Of a DNA stretch of 64,000 bases, positions 37,171-47,383 are shown one piece after another. Below the pieces are notes generated by a model, which did not search any database, was not told the origin of the DNA, and saw only the letters and a list, made by a program, of their open reading frames with translations. Position 1 is the stretch's first letter; each line of letters starts with the position of its first letter. The translations under genes were made by a program, and so were the position numbers. Source of the stretch: Bacteriovorax sp. Seq25_V (lineage in GTDB: Bacteria; Bdellovibrionota; Bacteriovoracia; Bacteriovoracales; Bacteriovoracaceae); contig NZ_AUNI01000011.1 of assembly GCF_000447795.1 (NCBI RefSeq), positions 1 through 64,000 on the forward strand. Direction: 5' to 3'.

Positions 37171-37195
37171 AGAAATTTTATAGGTTGTAAAATAG

Positions 37196-37220
37196 GGCCC
37201 AGAGAAATCTGGGCCTTTTT
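37196..37220. terminator. Terminator of lon, shared with the convergent regulator gene
   Basis: Perfect 8-bp stem GGCCCAGA/TCTGGGCC with GAAA tetraloop, then five T. The minus-strand regulator gene stops at 37220, so the hairpin may end both transcripts. Confidence 0.9.
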
Positions 37221-37729
37221 TATTTTAGGATTAGTAAATCTTCAAGGAAAAATGCAGAGAGTTCTGCTCGGCCATTGAGATTTGCCTTCGCATAAAGATT
37301 AGAAGCGTGTTGTTTAATTGTTTTTTCAGAAGAGTTACGGATTTCAGCAATCTCTCTAAGGGATAATCCCTTAAGCAAAAGTAAGGCGATATCTTTTTCT
37401 GACTCAGTAAGATTCCAGTCTATTAACTGCTGATTAATCATACCAGACAATCCTTCTGATAAGTCCTGTGTTCTCAATTTATAACTTTGAAGATCGTTCT
37501 TAAGCTTCACAATATCATGTTTTTGAGATTCATTTTGAAGTTTGATAGAGAAGTAACTTTTCCAAAGCATGAATATTCCAACGAGGCCTAAGAGCATAAT
37601 CGCAGCTTCTTTAGTGACATGGGATAAAGGTGCACCTTCACTGAAGTCTTCGTAAATATCAAGAAACAGGAGTATAATAACAGCAATAAATATTATACTA
37701 GTAGAGATTCGCTCTTTAAAATTAAGCAT
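37220..37729 (-). CDS. Membrane-anchored LuxR-type helix-turn-helix regulator
   Basis: 169 aa. Two N-terminal membrane segments (about 11-30 and 42-62), a coiled coil (KLQNESQKHDIVKLKNDLQS), and a C-terminal GerE/LuxR domain: LTESEKDIALLLLKGLSLREIA, then SSEKTIKQHASNLYAKANLNGRAEL. Tethered LuxR domains control genes from the membrane. It is divergent from the type III PKS operon with 125 bp between starts, so it is the natural candidate regulator for that operon. A near-perfect palindrome lies in the shared promoter region. Confidence 0.8.
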   Translation of the reverse strand: MLNFKERISTSIIFIAVIILLFLDIYEDFSEGAPLSHVTKEAAIMLLGLVGIFMLWKSYFSIKLQNESQKHDIVKLKNDLQSYKLRTQDLSEGLSGMINQQLIDWNLTESEKDIALLLLKGLSLREIAEIRNSSEKTIKQHASNLYAKANLNGRAELSAFFLEDLLILK

Positions 37730-37737
37730 TTAGTATC

Positions 37738-37755
37738 CTAGGACTTAAGTTCTAG
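37738..37755. promoter_or_regulatory. Palindrome in the LuxR-regulator / polyketide operon intergenic region
   Basis: CTAGGACTTAAGTTCTAG: 8 of 9 pairs are complementary. A second copy of the half-site GGACTT occurs inverted at 37774-37779 (AAGTCC). It is a possible LuxR-box-like operator. Confidence 0.4.
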
Positions 37756-37854
37756 AAGTTATTTTAAAGGAAACTTAGGTCTAAAGTCCAATTACTTTTC
37801 TTCCAAAAATGACGGATATTAAGCTTAGTAATGATGCTAGCAAAAGGAAATTTC

Positions 37855-38910
37855 ATGTCACGAATTATTCATATCGAAAGTCTTGCACCAAAATACGTAT
37901 ATTCAACAGATCAAATAATTGAAGCCGCTGACTCTCTTTGGCTTAAAAATGTTGATGAGATGACAAGGCGTAAGGCGATTAAAATATTTAAAGGTTCGAA
38001 TATCGATTTTCGACGTGCGGTAGTTCCGCTTGAAATTGCCTTTGGCGATCTTTCGTTTGAAGAAAAAAACAATATTTATATGAAAGAGATGATTGCTTAC
38101 GGTAAAGAACTCCTTTCTAATGCCATCAAAAACTCAGGGATTGAGCCAACTGATATTGACTATATTATTACAACTTCATGTACGGGAATTATGATCCCAT
38201 CAGTTGATGCTTATCTCGTTAATGAGTTAGGACTAAGAGGTGATATTGTAAGACTTCCTGTGACTGAAATGGGATGTGCCGGTGGAACCTCTGGACTGAT
38301 TTATGCAAACGATTTTTTGAAGGCTAATCCAGGTAAAACTGCAGTTCTTTTAACGATGGAAATACCATCAATTACTTTTCAAAAAAATGACCTTTCAGCA
38401 GAGAACCTTGTGAGCACAGCAATTTTCTCTGACGGATTTTCTTGTGCTGTTTTAAAAGGTGGAGAAGGACCAGGCGCCCACATCATTGATACGGATATGT
38501 ATCACTTTCATAAGGGTACATATCTTATGGGGTTTAATCTTACTAATACTGGTTTGAAAATTGTCTTAGACAAAGATGTTCCAAGTACCATTGAAGGAAA
38601 TTTTGAAAAAATCTTTCTTCCATTTTTAGAAAGAAATAAATTAAGAATTGAAGATATTGAGCATTATATGTTTCATCCAGGTGGTAAGAAAATTATTTCG
38701 ATGGTTGAAAATTACATCGCGGCATATGACAAGGATATCTCTGAATCGAAATGGGTACTTGAGAACCTTGGAAATATGTCTTCTGCAACGATTCTTCACA
38801 TTTTCGATAGAGTATCAGCAACAAGAGATATCAGACCTGGAGATAGGGGATATATGCTCGCCTTTGGACCTGGTTTTATGGCACAAAGTATTCTAGTGGA
38901 GTGGAGATAA
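37855..38910 (+). CDS. Type III polyketide synthase (chalcone synthase-like)
   Basis: 351 aa from the ATG at 37855 (AAAGGAAA 6 nt before); eight upstream codons are also open. The full triad of type III PKSs is present: C141 in MGCAGGTSG, H274 in FHPGGKKI and N307 in GNMSSATI. These enzymes load a starter acyl-CoA and extend it with malonyl-CoA to pyrones, resorcinols or acylphloroglucinols. The starter cannot be read from sequence, but the membrane-linked partners suggest a long acyl chain. First gene of a four-gene operon; the next ATG follows its stop directly. Confidence 0.93.
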   Translation: MSRIIHIESLAPKYVYSTDQIIEAADSLWLKNVDEMTRRKAIKIFKGSNIDFRRAVVPLEIAFGDLSFEEKNNIYMKEMIAYGKELLSNAIKNSGIEPTDIDYIITTSCTGIMIPSVDAYLVNELGLRGDIVRLPVTEMGCAGGTSGLIYANDFLKANPGKTAVLLTMEIPSITFQKNDLSAENLVSTAIFSDGFSCAVLKGGEGPGAHIIDTDMYHFHKGTYLMGFNLTNTGLKIVLDKDVPSTIEGNFEKIFLPFLERNKLRIEDIEHYMFHPGGKKIISMVENYIAAYDKDISESKWVLENLGNMSSATILHIFDRVSATRDIRPGDRGYMLAFGPGFMAQSILVEWR

Positions 38911-40857
38911 ATGAGGTCCCTGCTTAAAATTCTGCCTCTCGTGATAATTGGAGCATTCTTCTTTACTTATACGCAGGATCTTAAGCAGGTCAATAATGAA
39001 TATTTGTTCTTGACGTCACACGGAATTGAAAAGCTTGATAAATTTAAAAAAGAATTCCCTGAGCTTGAAACATTAATTGTGCAGGGAAATTTTCAAGAGA
39101 AAACTTCGGGCATTAATGAAATTTGTGATGAGTCTTGTGATGTTATTGCTATAAAAGATGGAAATACAGTTGAAGAGACTCGTGGAGCAGACTCTCTGAT
39201 TATCGTTTCTCGACTTGATCAAGAGAGTAAGATGAAGGAGTTGATACAGTATCTTGGTAATGATCACACTATTGAATTAGCTGGTCATAGTTATACTAAT
39301 AGCCTGCTTGATCATTACTCTGAAGTGATTCAAACTCAATTATTTCCAATGATGTTTGGAATTTCGTTCCTTCTCATTCTATTTTTTACTAGAAGTCTCT
39401 TAACGAGCGTGATTCTCTTTTATCCATCACTCCTTTCAGCGCTAATGAGTCTATCTGTCATTAAGTTTTTGTATGGCAGCATGAATATGGTGACATCAAT
39501 TGTACCGCTGATGACTTTCGTTGTGACCGTTTGTCTAGGCCAGCACTTATATTACGGACTAGATAGTCAGATGAGAATAAAAGATGTTTTGAAATATAAG
39601 AAGACACCAATTCTTCTCATGCTGTTGACTACATTTATTGGCTTTTTCTCACTTGGTCTAAGTTCAATATCTGTGATTAGAATCTTTGGAGTATTAACAG
39701 CGGTATTAATTGTTGTAACTAGTATAGTGGCCATTATTTGGTTCCACTGTTTATCTGATTTTTTAACAAAGACAGAACACCCTTTTAATTTTCTACAAGC
39801 TCATTATCCAAAGAAAACCTTTGGACGAGAGATAATTATTCTTATATCAATAATATCTTTGATGAGTATTTTAAGTCTTGTTGATAAAGTAAATGTGGTC
39901 ACAGATGCCACGATGTATTTTCCAAAGGAAAGTAAACTTAAAGAAAGAATTGATAATGTTACAAAAAGAGTTGGAGGGATTCCAATCGCTGAGATTGGGC
40001 TAAAGTTTAAAGATGATCTCAATTTTCAGGATATTTCTTTTCTTTTAAAATTAGAGAATAAAATTAAAGAGAAGACTGGACTTCAGATCATATCAAACAA
40101 TGAAATTGTCTCTGATATAAATTCTATCTATGCTAAGACAAGTGAACTTCCTGCAAATAAGGACGCCTATCTTTTGTTGCGCTCTAGAGCACCTCAGGCC
40201 TTTAAAGATATTTATCCGATCTTCGAAAATAGTTATCATATCACTCTCTTAGGGTCTGCGTTGAATGTGGATGATTATGAGCCATTAGTTAGTAGTGTCG
40301 AAGAATTGCTAAAGAAAGAAAAAATCCAATATGAAATTAACGGACTTTATTATAATTTGATGATCTCTCAAAAGGAGATGGTCATAACTTTACTTAAATC
40401 ATTTATGTCGAGCCTGGCGATGATTATTCTTATCGCATTTCTTTATATGAGAAGTGTTAAAGTTATTTTTACGTTCCTATTTGTTAATACAATCCCGGTA
40501 GGGCTTTCTATTGCATTTATCTATATTCTAGGGATGAGTTTAAATATTGCTACGATTATGACCTATAGTATTTCTCTCGGTATGGTTGTTGATAGTTCAT
40601 TTCATCTCATTCATGCACTGGAGCATCGAATGATGAGCTATGCTGACTATGTGAAAAAAATAGTTACACCAATTATTTCAAGTTCACTTGTTCTATGTTT
40701 AAGCTTTTTTCTCTTTGTAATAGAGGACTTTATACCAATTAAAGAATTTGGAATTAACTTATCATTTATTATTTTGATTGGACTTATATTTGATTTATTT
40801 ATACTTCCTACTTTATTCCTAGGTTCGAAGAAAACAAGTGAGCACTTTCATGGATAA
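38911..40857 (+). CDS. RND/MMPL-family membrane transporter
   Basis: 648 aa with about 10-11 membrane segments in two similar halves: after a first helix (LKILPLVIIGAFFFTY) and a periplasmic loop comes a helix bundle (MMFGISFLLILFF to SDFLTK), then a second helix, a second loop and a second bundle (SFMSSLAMIILIAFLYM to LFILPTLFLG). The GxxxDxxxH-type motif of the RND/MMPL family appears as GMVVDSSFHLIHALEHR. Half the size of a typical RND pump, like the hopanoid/lipid exporters of the MMPL class. It probably moves the product of the neighbouring PKS across the inner membrane. The substrate is inferred. Confidence 0.8.
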   Translation: MRSLLKILPLVIIGAFFFTYTQDLKQVNNEYLFLTSHGIEKLDKFKKEFPELETLIVQGNFQEKTSGINEICDESCDVIAIKDGNTVEETRGADSLIIVSRLDQESKMKELIQYLGNDHTIELAGHSYTNSLLDHYSEVIQTQLFPMMFGISFLLILFFTRSLLTSVILFYPSLLSALMSLSVIKFLYGSMNMVTSIVPLMTFVVTVCLGQHLYYGLDSQMRIKDVLKYKKTPILLMLLTTFIGFFSLGLSSISVIRIFGVLTAVLIVVTSIVAIIWFHCLSDFLTKTEHPFNFLQAHYPKKTFGREIIILISIISLMSILSLVDKVNVVTDATMYFPKESKLKERIDNVTKRVGGIPIAEIGLKFKDDLNFQDISFLLKLENKIKEKTGLQIISNNEIVSDINSIYAKTSELPANKDAYLLLRSRAPQAFKDIYPIFENSYHITLLGSALNVDDYEPLVSSVEELLKKEKIQYEINGLYYNLMISQKEMVITLLKSFMSSLAMIILIAFLYMRSVKVIFTFLFVNTIPVGLSIAFIYILGMSLNIATIMTYSISLGMVVDSSFHLIHALEHRMMSYADYVKKIVTPIISSSLVLCLSFFLFVIEDFIPIKEFGINLSFIILIGLIFDLFILPTLFLGSKKTSEHFHG

Positions 40858-42019
40858 AATATTTGATGTTTTAATAGTCGGTGCAGGCCCTGCTGGCACT
40901 TTGTTGGCATCTCAGTTAAGCAATGCTGGTCATAGTGTTGTGATTCTTGAAGGGGGAAGAGAAGTTAAGCGCAAAGTTTGTGGGGAATACTTATGTCCAA
41001 CAGGCGTTGACCTTCTTCGTGAACTTGGACTTAGTGACATTGTTGATAGATTTTTGCCGATTAAAGGTATGAATATTTATTCTCCAAATGGGCTAGAGGT
41101 TAAGTCCCTCTTTCCTCGAACTGGAAAAGATAATATTGGAGTGAGTCTTAATCGCAAAGATTTTGATACCTCTTTAGTAGAGTTAGCCCAAGCAAGTGGG
41201 GCAAAGATTTTCTTTGATCAGGCGGTGATAAATTTTGAAAATCAAGGCAGTTACTGGTCTGTGAAAACAGTTCAAGGTGAAGTATTTCAAGCAAGATTAC
41301 TTGTAGGTGCAGATGGTAGACGTTCGCATATTGCACGAACTATTGGGGCAACTATTCCGCCTGTAGAGGATGAGAAAAGAATTGCGATTCATGCATGGGT
41401 GCAGAGAAATACAAATCACGAAAGAGTTGGGCAGATGCACCTTTTTAAAGACTCCTCTTATATTGGTCTTGATCCTATTACTGAGAATGAAATTAATATC
41501 TCTCTTGTCTGTGATCCAAAGCGAATAAAAGAGTTAGGTGGCCCATTAGCTGTCATTAATCACTATATTGAAAAGTCATCATCACTCCATCATCAGATTG
41601 GACATGTTCAAGAAGGGGAGAAGATATATACTGTGTCTCCAATATCACATCAGCTTAAACCGTATCGAGTTAACAATCTCGTTCTAATTGGTGATGCTGC
41701 CGGCTTTATTGATCCATTGACTGGAGAAGGGATATTTAATGCACTTTGGATGGCAAAAACCTTAGCCAGTGAAATAATCGAGTCTCAAGCATTCCTAGAT
41801 TATAATACGGCGATCCAAAAATTTAATTCGAAACGAGTTAAGTTTTTTAGACAGAAGAAGATTACAAACTTTTTCTTTCAATGGTTAATTAGAAAAAAAC
41901 TCTTAGTTGAGCTTGTTGCAAAATTTTTAAGAAAAAGTAAAAAAAGAGCAGATGCCTTTGTCGGTATTATTGGAAATGTATATAGTCCGATAAGAGGTTT
42001 ATTAAAGATTATTTTTTAA
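40850..42019 (+). CDS. FAD-dependent oxidoreductase (geranylgeranyl reductase/monooxygenase type)
   Basis: 389 aa from the ATG at 40850, overlapping the transporter by 8 bp; the frame is open from a GTG at 40838. N-terminal FAD motif IVGAGPAGTLLASQLSNAGH, middle motif LVGADGRRSHIART (GxD), and C-terminal ribityl motif LIGDAAGFIDPLTGEGIFNALW. This combination marks the p-hydroxybenzoate hydroxylase-like superfamily, which includes lipid tailoring enzymes. It probably hydroxylates or reduces the polyketide. Tightly packed within the operon. Confidence 0.87.
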   Translation: MDKIFDVLIVGAGPAGTLLASQLSNAGHSVVILEGGREVKRKVCGEYLCPTGVDLLRELGLSDIVDRFLPIKGMNIYSPNGLEVKSLFPRTGKDNIGVSLNRKDFDTSLVELAQASGAKIFFDQAVINFENQGSYWSVKTVQGEVFQARLLVGADGRRSHIARTIGATIPPVEDEKRIAIHAWVQRNTNHERVGQMHLFKDSSYIGLDPITENEINISLVCDPKRIKELGGPLAVINHYIEKSSSLHHQIGHVQEGEKIYTVSPISHQLKPYRVNNLVLIGDAAGFIDPLTGEGIFNALWMAKTLASEIIESQAFLDYNTAIQKFNSKRVKFFRQKKITNFFFQWLIRKKLLVELVAKFLRKSKKRADAFVGIIGNVYSPIRGLLKIIF

Positions 42020-42031
42020 GAAGGAGTTTAT

Positions 42032-42586
42032 ATGAAATTTTTGATATCACTATTGTTAATTCTCTCTAATGTTTGTGCAAAGGAAGTTGCTATCGATTAT
42101 GAAAGCTATAAGGACGCATTAAATGGAGCTAATAAAATTGTTTTTGATATGGAATCTACAAAAGCTGGATTTATTACAACTGGCTTTTCCGGTGTAGTAA
42201 AAAGTTTCAAGCTCAATTATGAAATTGATCAAGAGAATATTAAAGATGCAAAGGTATACTTCTTTGTTGCCAATCTCGATACGGATATTGATGCTCGTAA
42301 CGAAAAAATGCTTAATCTATGCCTCGAAGCAGAGAAGTATCCTGTTATTATGGTGGAGCTTGGAAACTTAGAAATAGGTAAAAGTGAGAAAGATTCTGAG
42401 ATTCAAATTAGGGGACAAAAGTATCCATTAAAGGTCAATGTCGAGGTTGGAAAAATAGATGATGTTTTTAAAGTAAAATTTAACTCAAAGATAAGTCTAA
42501 AAGGTTTTAATATACCAGACCCTTCGATTTTTATTGCTAGTGTAAGAGATTTAATTGAGATACACGGTGAAGTAGAGATAAAGTAA
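42032..42586 (+). CDS. YceI-family periplasmic lipid-binding protein
   Basis: 184 aa. Signal peptide MKFLISLLLILSNVCA. The lipocalin-like YceI pattern follows: KIVFDMESTKAGFITTGFSGVVKSF, then NLDTDIDARNEKML (family MxxxSIxTxNxxRDxHL), then IRGQKYPL, then FKVKFNSKISLKGFNIP. YceI proteins bind isoprenoids or amphiphilic lipids in the periplasm. Strong AAGGAG site, 12 nt after the oxidoreductase; last gene of the operon. It may shuttle the polyketide lipid. Confidence 0.82.
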   Translation: MKFLISLLLILSNVCAKEVAIDYESYKDALNGANKIVFDMESTKAGFITTGFSGVVKSFKLNYEIDQENIKDAKVYFFVANLDTDIDARNEKMLNLCLEAEKYPVIMVELGNLEIGKSEKDSEIQIRGQKYPLKVNVEVGKIDDVFKVKFNSKISLKGFNIPDPSIFIASVRDLIEIHGEVEIK

Positions 42587-45514: not shown

Positions 45515-47383
45515 ATGAGTACAGCTCTAAGTCAATCGAGTGAGTATGACAAATTAATTAGTAGAGTATCTGCAATTGTTGCAAAGATATCGGGAAATGT
45601 ATTGGAGGAGAAGCAGGCTCTGATGGTACAAACTCGAGTTAAGAAAAGGATGTTGGAGCTTGGTCATAATTCTCCGGCGGAGTATCTAGTTTTCTTAGAG
45701 AAAAACTTGAATAGTGAGTCAGGAGTTCTTGTATCTCTTCTAACTACTCACCATACTTTCTTTTTTCGTGAATTTAATCATTTTGAATATGTTAAAGCGA
45801 ATCTCTCTACTATCGTTAAGAACGTCAGAGCTCGTGGAGATAATACAATTCGTATTTGGTCTGCTGCCTGCTCTCGTGGACAAGAAGTGTATTCATTGTC
45901 AATGTTCTTAAATTTCTATCTTCCAAAAATTGATCCCTCTATGAAGTTTAAAATTATTGGAAGTGATATTGATCCGGAGTCTGTAAAAGTTGCCGCCAAT
46001 GGCGTTTATCATCGTCGTGAGATTAAAAGTGTTCCAATGAATTATCTTGGAGATCACTGGGCAAGAGGTAAAGGGGAAATTTCTGAATTCGTAAAAGCAA
46101 AGAAGAGTATTACAGAACCCACTGAATTCAAAGTTGTGAACCTTCTGGATTTTAAAACGCAAATGCGTGGTTCTAAGTTTGATATTATTTTTTGTCGAAA
46201 TGTATTTATTTATTTTAGACCAGATCAAATTAAGTTGATCATGAATGAATTTTTAAATCACCTCTATGATACGGGATTGTTCTTTAGCGGTATCTCCGAA
46301 TCCCTAGGGGGATTACAGCTTGAAATTGATAACGTTGGACCATCAATCTATATGAGAAAAGGGGCGAAGGCCGAAGCTTCTGCAACTCCAGAGTCATTAG
46401 CAGTCTCTGGTACTACTCCAGCTCCTGTCTCTATTGCAAGAGCGCCAGTAATGCCAAGTATGCCAACGACATTGAAAGTTGTTTGCGTAGATGATTCTTC
46501 TTCAATCCTTACTCTTCTTAAGAAGGTCTTTGAACCGGGAAGTGGTTTTGAGGTTGTCGGTGTGGCGAAAAATGGTATTGAGGCAAAAGAAGTTATTGCT
46601 AAATGTAAACCAGATCTTGTGACGTTAGATATTCACATGCCAGAAATGGATGGGGTAACTTACCTTCAGAGAAACTTTAATTCGACGCATCCGCCTGTTG
46701 TTATGATTTCTTCAGCTTCGCGTGACGACTCAGATGCCGCCATGAAAGCTCTTCGAGCTGGAGCTTCTGACTTTATTGAGAAGCCTGCTTTAAATAATAT
46801 GATGGAGCGTGGAGAAGAAATTAAAACTAAGTTAAAGGTTGCCTATATGGATAAGGCCTTTGCTTCGTCTCATGTTTCAAGTGTTGATAAGGAATTTGAA
46901 AAGAAAATTGCAATATCATCACCTGAAAATAAATTTAGAGTTATTTATAGTTCTGTTTCGGATCAAAAGAAAGTTGTTAAGTTCTTCAATGAGCTTCATG
47001 ACAAACAACCACCGACTGTGATGTTCTTTGAAGGACAGGATAATATTCTTCAAGCGTTAAAAGAGGATATGAAATCTAAGGTTAGATATAATCTTGAAGT
47101 TATTGATGTTCTTCCAACGTCATTTTCTCCTGACACAATCTATCTTGCCGACTTTAAAAAGCTTTATGATTCTGTTTGTTCGAAAAATAAGTCAAAACCT
47201 ACATCTTGGCTTATTTTTGGAAAAACTTCTAAACATGCTTCAGAGAAAATTTTAGAGTGGGATAACGGTCATCTCCTTGTTGAAGACTTGAATTATAAGT
47301 GTGAGTTAACTGAAGTTGCCGCAGATGTCGTGCCAGCTACAAGTTTTGCGTACATGTCTTGTGACTGGCTAAGTAAGAAATGA
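45515..47383 (+). CDS. CheR methyltransferase fused to a receiver domain and a CheB-like (inactive) domain
   Basis: 622 aa. Residues 10-285: CheR, with TTHHTFFFRE (77-86), SAM motif IWSAACSRGQEVYSL (114-128) and FDIIFCRNVFIYF (222-234). A proline/alanine linker (286-317) follows. Residues 320-445: receiver domain with VVCVDDSS (322-329), phospho-Asp D372 in LDIHMPEMDG, and SSAS and EKP at the T/K positions. Residues 473-615 follow the order of a CheB methylesterase (PPTVMFFEGQ for PxLIVQHMP; VIDVLPTSFSPDTIYLAD for VxEAxDGxxLxPGxVYxAP; SWLIFGKTS for xVLTGMGxDG) but have none of the Ser, His, Asp catalytic residues. The two ends of the adaptation cycle thus meet in one chain, with the esterase half dead. 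Confidence 0.85.
   Translation: MSTALSQSSEYDKLISRVSAIVAKISGNVLEEKQALMVQTRVKKRMLELGHNSPAEYLVFLEKNLNSESGVLVSLLTTHHTFFFREFNHFEYVKANLSTIVKNVRARGDNTIRIWSAACSRGQEVYSLSMFLNFYLPKIDPSMKFKIIGSDIDPESVKVAANGVYHRREIKSVPMNYLGDHWARGKGEISEFVKAKKSITEPTEFKVVNLLDFKTQMRGSKFDIIFCRNVFIYFRPDQIKLIMNEFLNHLYDTGLFFSGISESLGGLQLEIDNVGPSIYMRKGAKAEASATPESLAVSGTTPAPVSIARAPVMPSMPTTLKVVCVDDSSSILTLLKKVFEPGSGFEVVGVAKNGIEAKEVIAKCKPDLVTLDIHMPEMDGVTYLQRNFNSTHPPVVMISSASRDDSDAAMKALRAGASDFIEKPALNNMMERGEEIKTKLKVAYMDKAFASSHVSSVDKEFEKKIAISSPENKFRVIYSSVSDQKKVVKFFNELHDKQPPTVMFFEGQDNILQALKEDMKSKVRYNLEVIDVLPTSFSPDTIYLADFKKLYDSVCSKNKSKPTSWLIFGKTSKHASEKILEWDNGHLLVEDLNYKCELTEVAADVVPATSFAYMSCDWLSKK

Follow-up and report, generated by a model that had tools for sequence, protein, structure and literature searches.

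The locus described here raises the question of whether a type III polyketide synthase (PKS) gene and the transporter, oxidoreductase and lipid-binding genes packed behind it form one unit, and which product such a unit would make. It is located in a stretch of 64,000 nucleotides of Bacteriovorax sp. Seq25_V, which was analyzed as a whole and is called the window in the following. Five open reading frames, coding for a LuxR-type regulator, the PKS, an RND/MMPL-like transporter, an FAD-dependent oxidoreductase and a YceI-family protein, were confirmed in the window (Table 1), in agreement with the first-pass annotation. The genes for the PKS, the RND protein, the FAD enzyme and YceI run head to tail with gaps of 0, −8 (counted from the ATG start of the FAD gene) and +12 nt, as expected from the tight packing of −8 to 12 nt claimed before. 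The regulator gene is transcribed divergently from the PKS gene, with 101 bp between them.

Table 1. Features of the PKS locus; positions are those of the window.
Feature	Position	Strand	Remarks
Terminator-like hairpin	37194..37217	both	between lon and regulator gene; stem of 10 bp on +, 8 bp on −
LuxR/GerE-type regulator with two N-terminal membrane helices	37220..37729	−	GerE, 4e-10
Operator-like palindrome CTAGGACTTAAGTTCTAG, core GGAC-N4-GTTC	37738..37755		divergent intergenic region
Second operator-like copy GGTCTAAAGTCC	37778..37789		same 101-base divergent region
Type III PKS (clade A)	37831..38910	+	alternative start at 37855
RND/MMPL-like transporter, 648 aa	38911..40857	+	weak RND matches, own subfamily, tree
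FAD-dependent oxidoreductase	40838 (GTG) or 40850 (ATG)..42019	+	FAD_binding_3, fold, motifs
YceI-family lipocalin-like protein with signal peptide	42032..42586	+	PF04264; signal peptide read from sequence

Matches above the Pfam cut-offs were obtained for GerE, for the N- and C-terminal Chal_sti_synt domains, for FAD_binding_3 and for YceI, which upholds the proposed identities of the FAD oxidoreductase and the YceI protein. The two Chal_sti_synt domains (69.9 and 66.7 bits, cut-off 27) identify the synthase as a type III PKS. Its catalytic triad Cys149/His282/Asn315, numbered on the longest ORF, corresponds to Cys141/His274/Asn307 counted from the ATG at 37855, the residues that had been named as intact, and is invariant across the 23 relatives aligned. 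The RND/MMPL-like protein has weak matches to RND proteins in NCBIfam and the PDB, but no Pfam match, and it stays below the curated cut-offs (TIGR00921, 29.6 versus 351.9 bits; HpnN, 21.3 versus 751.9 bits). Neither a methyltransferase, whose absence had been claimed for O-methyltransferases, nor a dedicated gene for starter supply was found in the window operon, the former among both ORFs and Pfam matches. On the left side, the hairpin carries a T-rich tail on each strand, in a region with 10 terminator-like sites observed versus 3.0 expected, and this terminator-like, two-way structure may insulate the cluster from lon.

The first point to be settled is whether the pump and the carrier are unrelated to the PKS and its neighbors by chance. 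Both the RND and the YceI families are common, many other RND genes being listed, and the function of both proteins is inferred. To this end 129 genomes of the order, all belonging to one family, were compared with the window genome (G000) included. A PKS relative (E < 1e-27) was present in 48 of them. The RND subfamily (>160 bits, other RND matches reaching at most 131 bits) was found in 40 of the 48 genomes with PKS and in 2 of the 81 without (Fisher 7e-23; genomes not independent), and a YceI relative (>50 bits) in 40/48 and 4/81, respectively (Fisher 1e-20; genomes not independent). Within 9 kb of the PKS lie 36 of 42 RND copies and 37 of 44 YceI copies. The same pattern is seen inside single genera: in the genus of the window all three genes occur in G000, G049 and G051 and none in G048, G050 and G052; in genus g16 all three occur in G044-G047 and none in G043; in genus g35 they occur in G076 and G078 and none in G077. 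Although the genomes are not independent, these within-genus contrasts agree with the order-wide association. The PKS, RND and YceI genes are thus not chance neighbors, and the gene set is an evolutionary unit. A chance neighborhood, rejected by co-occurrence, proximity and the same-genus contrasts, is regarded as highly improbable, and a single-genome oddity is rejected as well, as the cluster recurs in relatives. The link between pump, carrier and polyketide, earlier drawn from one gene order, now has order-wide co-occurrence behind it.

A search for the five-gene order in relatives, as had been suggested, was also performed. The order of a reverse-oriented LuxR gene followed by PKS, RND, FAD and YceI genes in forward orientation is identical in four loci (L033-L036). 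Three further loci are near-identical: in L037 the YceI gene has moved, L038 has no LuxR gene nearby, and L039 has no RND gene. A second group of PKS loci in the family, clade B, contains the same gene families in other orders. The reading as one functional unit is therefore borne out by the co-occurrence, the conserved order and the distant YceI and MMPL genes beside some Bacteroidota PKS clusters. No full cluster was detected in the regions opened in the plasmid collection, where PKS matches reached at most ~32% identity and one FAD match 25%. A literature search for type III PKS together with YceI gave no result, and other searches turned up no work on an operon of this type among Bdellovibrio-like bacteria.

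The history of the cluster is not that of a single block. The window PKS shares 48-53% identity with a large Bacteroidota family and only ~29% with the clade-B enzymes of its own family. In the PKS tree, clade A groups with the Bacteroidota enzymes (100/99) and clade B with Pks11 and CylI (100/96), whereas two further synthases of the family (L081, L083) stand apart from both clades. In the RND tree, by contrast, the window and clade-A copies are intermixed with clade-B copies in a group of 19 rows (support 99). The FAD tree likewise places clade-A and clade-B copies in one group of 22 rows (98), and the RND and FAD copies of the family are far from the Bacteroidota ones. Since the PKS groups with Bacteroidota and the RND and FAD proteins with clade-B-type relatives, the trees indicate that the synthase was exchanged while the delivery cassette was kept: a cassette of pump, oxidase and carrier was already resident when it received a synthase from another lineage, with either direction of transfer being compatible with the trees. 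Inheritance of the PKS together with the rest of the operon is rejected by the same comparison. That pump and carrier stay with whichever PKS is present is the strongest argument that they handle the polyketide.

The clade-B loci differ from the window in several accessory genes. Most of them have a protein of ~180 aa, the size of a methyltransferase, adjoining the PKS; in the one locus tested it is an ICMT (64.5 bits, cut-off 24), and the same PKS-ICMT pair is found in Sulfitobacter. The ICMT gene is absent from the cassette holding the clade-A synthase. Because most clade-B relatives have a methyltransferase-sized gene, the absence of a methyltransferase reflects a loss or replacement in the sub-lineage of the window. 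A second, distinct FAD subfamily occurs in the clade-B clusters L051, L045, L048, L069 and L070, accompanied in L045 and L051 by an NnrU-like membrane protein; L045 also contains candidate genes for an acyl-AMP ligase and an ACP.

Lipids and quinones made by type III PKSs have been described in actinobacteria, cyanobacteria, Azotobacter and planctomycetes. For the window enzyme, the best NCBIfam match is the DpgA (3,5-dihydroxyphenylacetyl-CoA synthase) family NF042429 with 152.7 bits, below the cut-off of 425. In the PDB it matches best to Pks11, which is annotated as an alpha-pyrone synthase. The window PKS has Phe235 where ArsB-type enzymes have Trp (Trp281 in ArsB), a position which we take, by motif, to correspond to the CHS Gly256 site. 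The correspondence is supported by PMC6274091. Clade A has Phe or Tyr at this position and all clade-B rows aligned have Trp, a bulky aromatic residue thus being kept. As Phe stands where ArsB has the Trp that favors resorcinols, the ring type is not predictable, and an attempt to call resorcinol or pyrone from this single residue did not decide between them.

More can be said about the FAD enzyme, in which the motifs KVCGE and GD.A....PL.G.G are invariant. Against the geranylgeranyl (GG) reductase family TIGR02032 it reaches 151.1 bits, below the cut-off of 158.8 (relatives 84-122 bits), and GG-red-SF is the best NCBIfam family in all members tested, with an invariant CGE motif. The nearest folds of its structure model (pLDDT 85) are phenolic flavin halogenases (PltA-like), followed by aromatic and squalene monooxygenases and GG reductase; these matches differ little in score (Z 36 to 32), and the GG reductase Ta0516 is among the top ones. 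A flavin-dependent halogenase was considered and rejected, as the WxWxIP motif is absent though the nearest folds are PltA-like.

In three loci from two genera, to which this arrangement is limited, the cluster has no FAD gene and contains instead a U32-family gene and a UbiE-like methyltransferase above the cut-off of TIGR01934 (L040:7986-10323, L041:3824-6171, L042:5931-9029). The U32 gene adjoins the PKS on the same strand in L040 and L041; in L042 it lies on the opposite strand between the YceI and methyltransferase genes. Its product has a CX3C...CX3C pattern and is, by curated model, neither UbiU nor UbiV. Both of these U32 members hydroxylate ubiquinone independently of O2 and contain 4Fe-4S clusters (PMC6747719). 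The replacement of the FAD gene by a gene of a hydroxylase family suggests that the FAD enzyme is a ring hydroxylase, which is the probable function by analogy to the srs/PkQ pathway, and it favors ring hydroxylation, i.e., a quinone or hydroquinone, as the outcome. If this is true, the natural FAD-to-U32 swap would extend O2-independent ring hydroxylation beyond ubiquinone.

On balance, we slightly favor synthesis and delivery of a redox-active phenolic lipid by this operon. Starting from a fatty acyl group, the type III PKS would add malonyl units and close an alkylresorcinol-type ring, which the FAD enzyme, as the U32 swap suggests, would hydroxylate to an alkyl-hydroquinone or quinone. Transport of the product across or out of the inner membrane may then fall to the RND protein, and its passage through the periplasm, probably to the outer membrane, to the YceI lipocalin; once there, the product could act as an electron carrier or lipid antioxidant. 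The likeliest product is a hydroxylated ring lipid of the polyketide-quinone kind, on the best reading an alkylresorcinol or alkylquinone related to the srs lipids; a lipid-type product, as first proposed, is supported. Several points weigh against the redox-active lipid. The FAD enzyme, which matches best to the GG-reductase family, could reduce instead of hydroxylate, the window operon has no methyltransferase, which characterized alkylquinone operons have, a starter-supply gene is absent, and the U32 swap is confined to its three loci. The Phe of the PKS in place of the ArsB Trp and the distance of the RND protein from pumps with a known substrate also count here.

A less favored, tentative alternative is a non-quinone phenolic lipid or alkylpyrone that serves as structural or stress envelope lipid like the cyst lipids of Azotobacter, with the FAD enzyme reducing double bonds of the chain and the pump placing the lipid in the outer membrane. 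The GG-red-SF assignment with its invariant CGE motif, the rank of Ta0516 among the folds, the missing methyltransferase and the PDB match to Pks11 all fit this, but in the fold comparison the ranks of flavin halogenases and aromatic hydroxylases equal or exceed that of the GG reductase, and in L040-L042 the FAD gene is replaced by a gene of the U32 hydroxylase family beside a UbiE-like ring methyltransferase.

An exported toxin or signal, such as an antibiotic pyrone or resorcinol directed against prey or competitors, with the pump for self-protection, appears very unlikely. Alkylresorcinols can be antimicrobial, the transporter adjoins the PKS, and there are predatory bacteria in the family. 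A retained lipid, however, agrees better with a periplasmic YceI carrier and a conserved oxidase, PKS clusters with YceI also occur in Bacteroidota not known as predators, and no secretion or immunity gene is present.

A redox-active lipid could also serve respiration, as polyketide quinones carry electrons and can replace menaquinone in actinobacteria, namely in mycobacteria and Streptomyces (PMC9927152). That the product is such a respiratory quinone, able to stand in for menaquinone and distributed between the membranes by YceI and the RND pump, is considered unlikely. It would suit five genomes that are at least 90% complete (G021, G062, G064, G057, G074) and have the PKS and a full NuoH without MenA or true MenD, in a search directed at MenA, MenD and UbiA-family genes. 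Their sole UbiA-family gene looks CtaB-like by length, with frames of ~590-610 aa in four of them and 306 aa in G057. The window genome itself, on the other hand, has a full classical menaquinone set (MenF, MenD, MenA, UbiE and a MenC-like gene), four good NuoH-positive genomes (G024, G068, G084, G091) lack menaquinone genes and PKS alike, and canonical NuoH is missing from those g47 genomes whose cluster includes UbiE. A simple tie between PKS presence and loss of menaquinone genes was not supported (5/30 versus 4/35, p 0.72, counted by hand from the tables). Quite unlikely, too, is a form of this idea restricted to part of the family (e.g., G021, 100% complete, with NuoH and a CtaB-like heme O synthase and without MenA/MenD), in which the PKS cluster would make the only respiratory quinone, pump and lipocalin would move it, and the clusters L040-L042 would hydroxylate the ring without oxygen via U32.

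Two side observations concern the menaquinone genes. The cluster UbiE is the only one above the family cut-off in G126 and G127, where MenA and MenD were not found. Near-complete genomes with NuoH and without MenA or true MenD exist with and without PKS.

Among characterized systems, srsABC of Streptomyces griseus and pkqABC of Mycobacterium smegmatis resemble the window operon at the family level, combining a type III PKS and an FAD-family oxidoreductase in one operon with an expected lipid product. They differ in having a methyltransferase, and the window adds the RND pump, the YceI carrier and the membrane-bound LuxR regulator. The srs and PkQ operons convert resorcinol to quinone via methyltransferase and hydroxylase (PMC9927152). 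The hidABC (hierridin) operon of cyanobacteria and a methyltransferase-oxidoreductase-PKS operon of Planctomycetota share PKS and FAD oxidoreductase with the window but include a methyltransferase, and no RND pump is mentioned for them in the passages considered. For ‘Saltatorellus ferox’, a gene for a lipid/isoprenoid-binding protein is reported next to the type III PKS gene (PMC10896814). An RND transporter is part of cyanobacterial type III PKS clusters, as in the window; these, however, are hybrid type I/type III or cytochrome b5 clusters, with no mention of YceI (PMC8086630).

The closest PKS relatives belong to a large conserved Bacteroidota operon with its own starter supply (L089-L167), ordered FAD-methyltransferase-PKS-(SDR)-dehydratase-KS-ACP-PPTase, for which no characterized product was found in the literature searched. 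Its FAD enzyme is of related fold, but the operon differs by its starter-making enzymes and methyltransferase, and its FAD, YceI and RND proteins are distant from those of the window. A distant YceI gene lies upstream of or near the PKS in ~15 of 79 Bacteroidota loci and an MMPL gene downstream in ~8 of 79 (16 and 9 of 80 with the sister locus L088 of Halobacteriovorax marinus isolate 36_234_T64 included).

Phenolic-lipid clusters with a type III PKS are known, and the new part here is the cluster's own export and carrier cassette. To our knowledge, the route of type III PKS lipids out of the inner membrane has not been established, and we know of no agreed physiological cargo of YceI proteins. 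Within the order, the RND protein belongs to a separate subfamily that is remote from all transporters whose substrate is known. Its model shows ~12 long helices (mean pLDDT 61), consistent with a two-repeat pattern with two non-membrane domains, and as this model is of low confidence, the substrate is deduced from linkage only. The YceI protein matches PF04264 over nearly its full length (4.4e-9, 37.3 bits, cut-off 23.7). YceI lipocalins bind ubiquinone-8 or octaprenylphenol and are proposed to counter lipid peroxidation (PMC9113575), and a periplasmic lipid carrier is the best reading by analogy. BcnA/LcoA of Burkholderia, a YceI lipocalin system that is proposed to counter lipid peroxidation by means of a bound quinol, differs from the window protein in lacking biosynthetic genes and in having cytochrome b561 as partner (PMC9113575). 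A conserved cassette of RND subfamily, YceI lipocalin and oxidase with exchangeable synthases points to a specific export route that can be tested, and it suggests what YceI proteins may bind in nature.

Regarding regulation, the LuxR-type protein had been described as divergently encoded with two membrane helices, and both features were recovered, the hydrophobic helices lying at residues ~8-26 and ~38-62, N-terminal to the HTH. Its best NCBIfam match is the LIC13292 family NF047608 (82.8 bits over residues 23-166, cut-off 200), and by sequence it is related to, but separate from, this family. The regulator family has 87 copies, 23 of them near a PKS, and stands beside the cluster in 23 of 55 PKS loci; as it is widespread, its co-occurrence alone is weak. 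Of 7 clade-A loci, 6 have a GGAC-N4-GTCC palindrome with at most one mismatch between the divergent genes. In 60 shuffled sets, with any tetramer and spacing allowed, a count of 6 never arose (most 4, best 5); as the motif was chosen post hoc and only base composition was preserved on shuffling, the palindrome is treated as a lead. Five sites of this type occur in the 64 kb, two of them inside the 101-base divergent region. The membrane-anchored regulator, encoded next to these repeated palindromes, may switch the operon.

Downstream of the cluster, a cheA-cheW operon in the window contains a frame of 622 aa (45515-47383) that reads like a CheR methyltransferase fused to a receiver domain.
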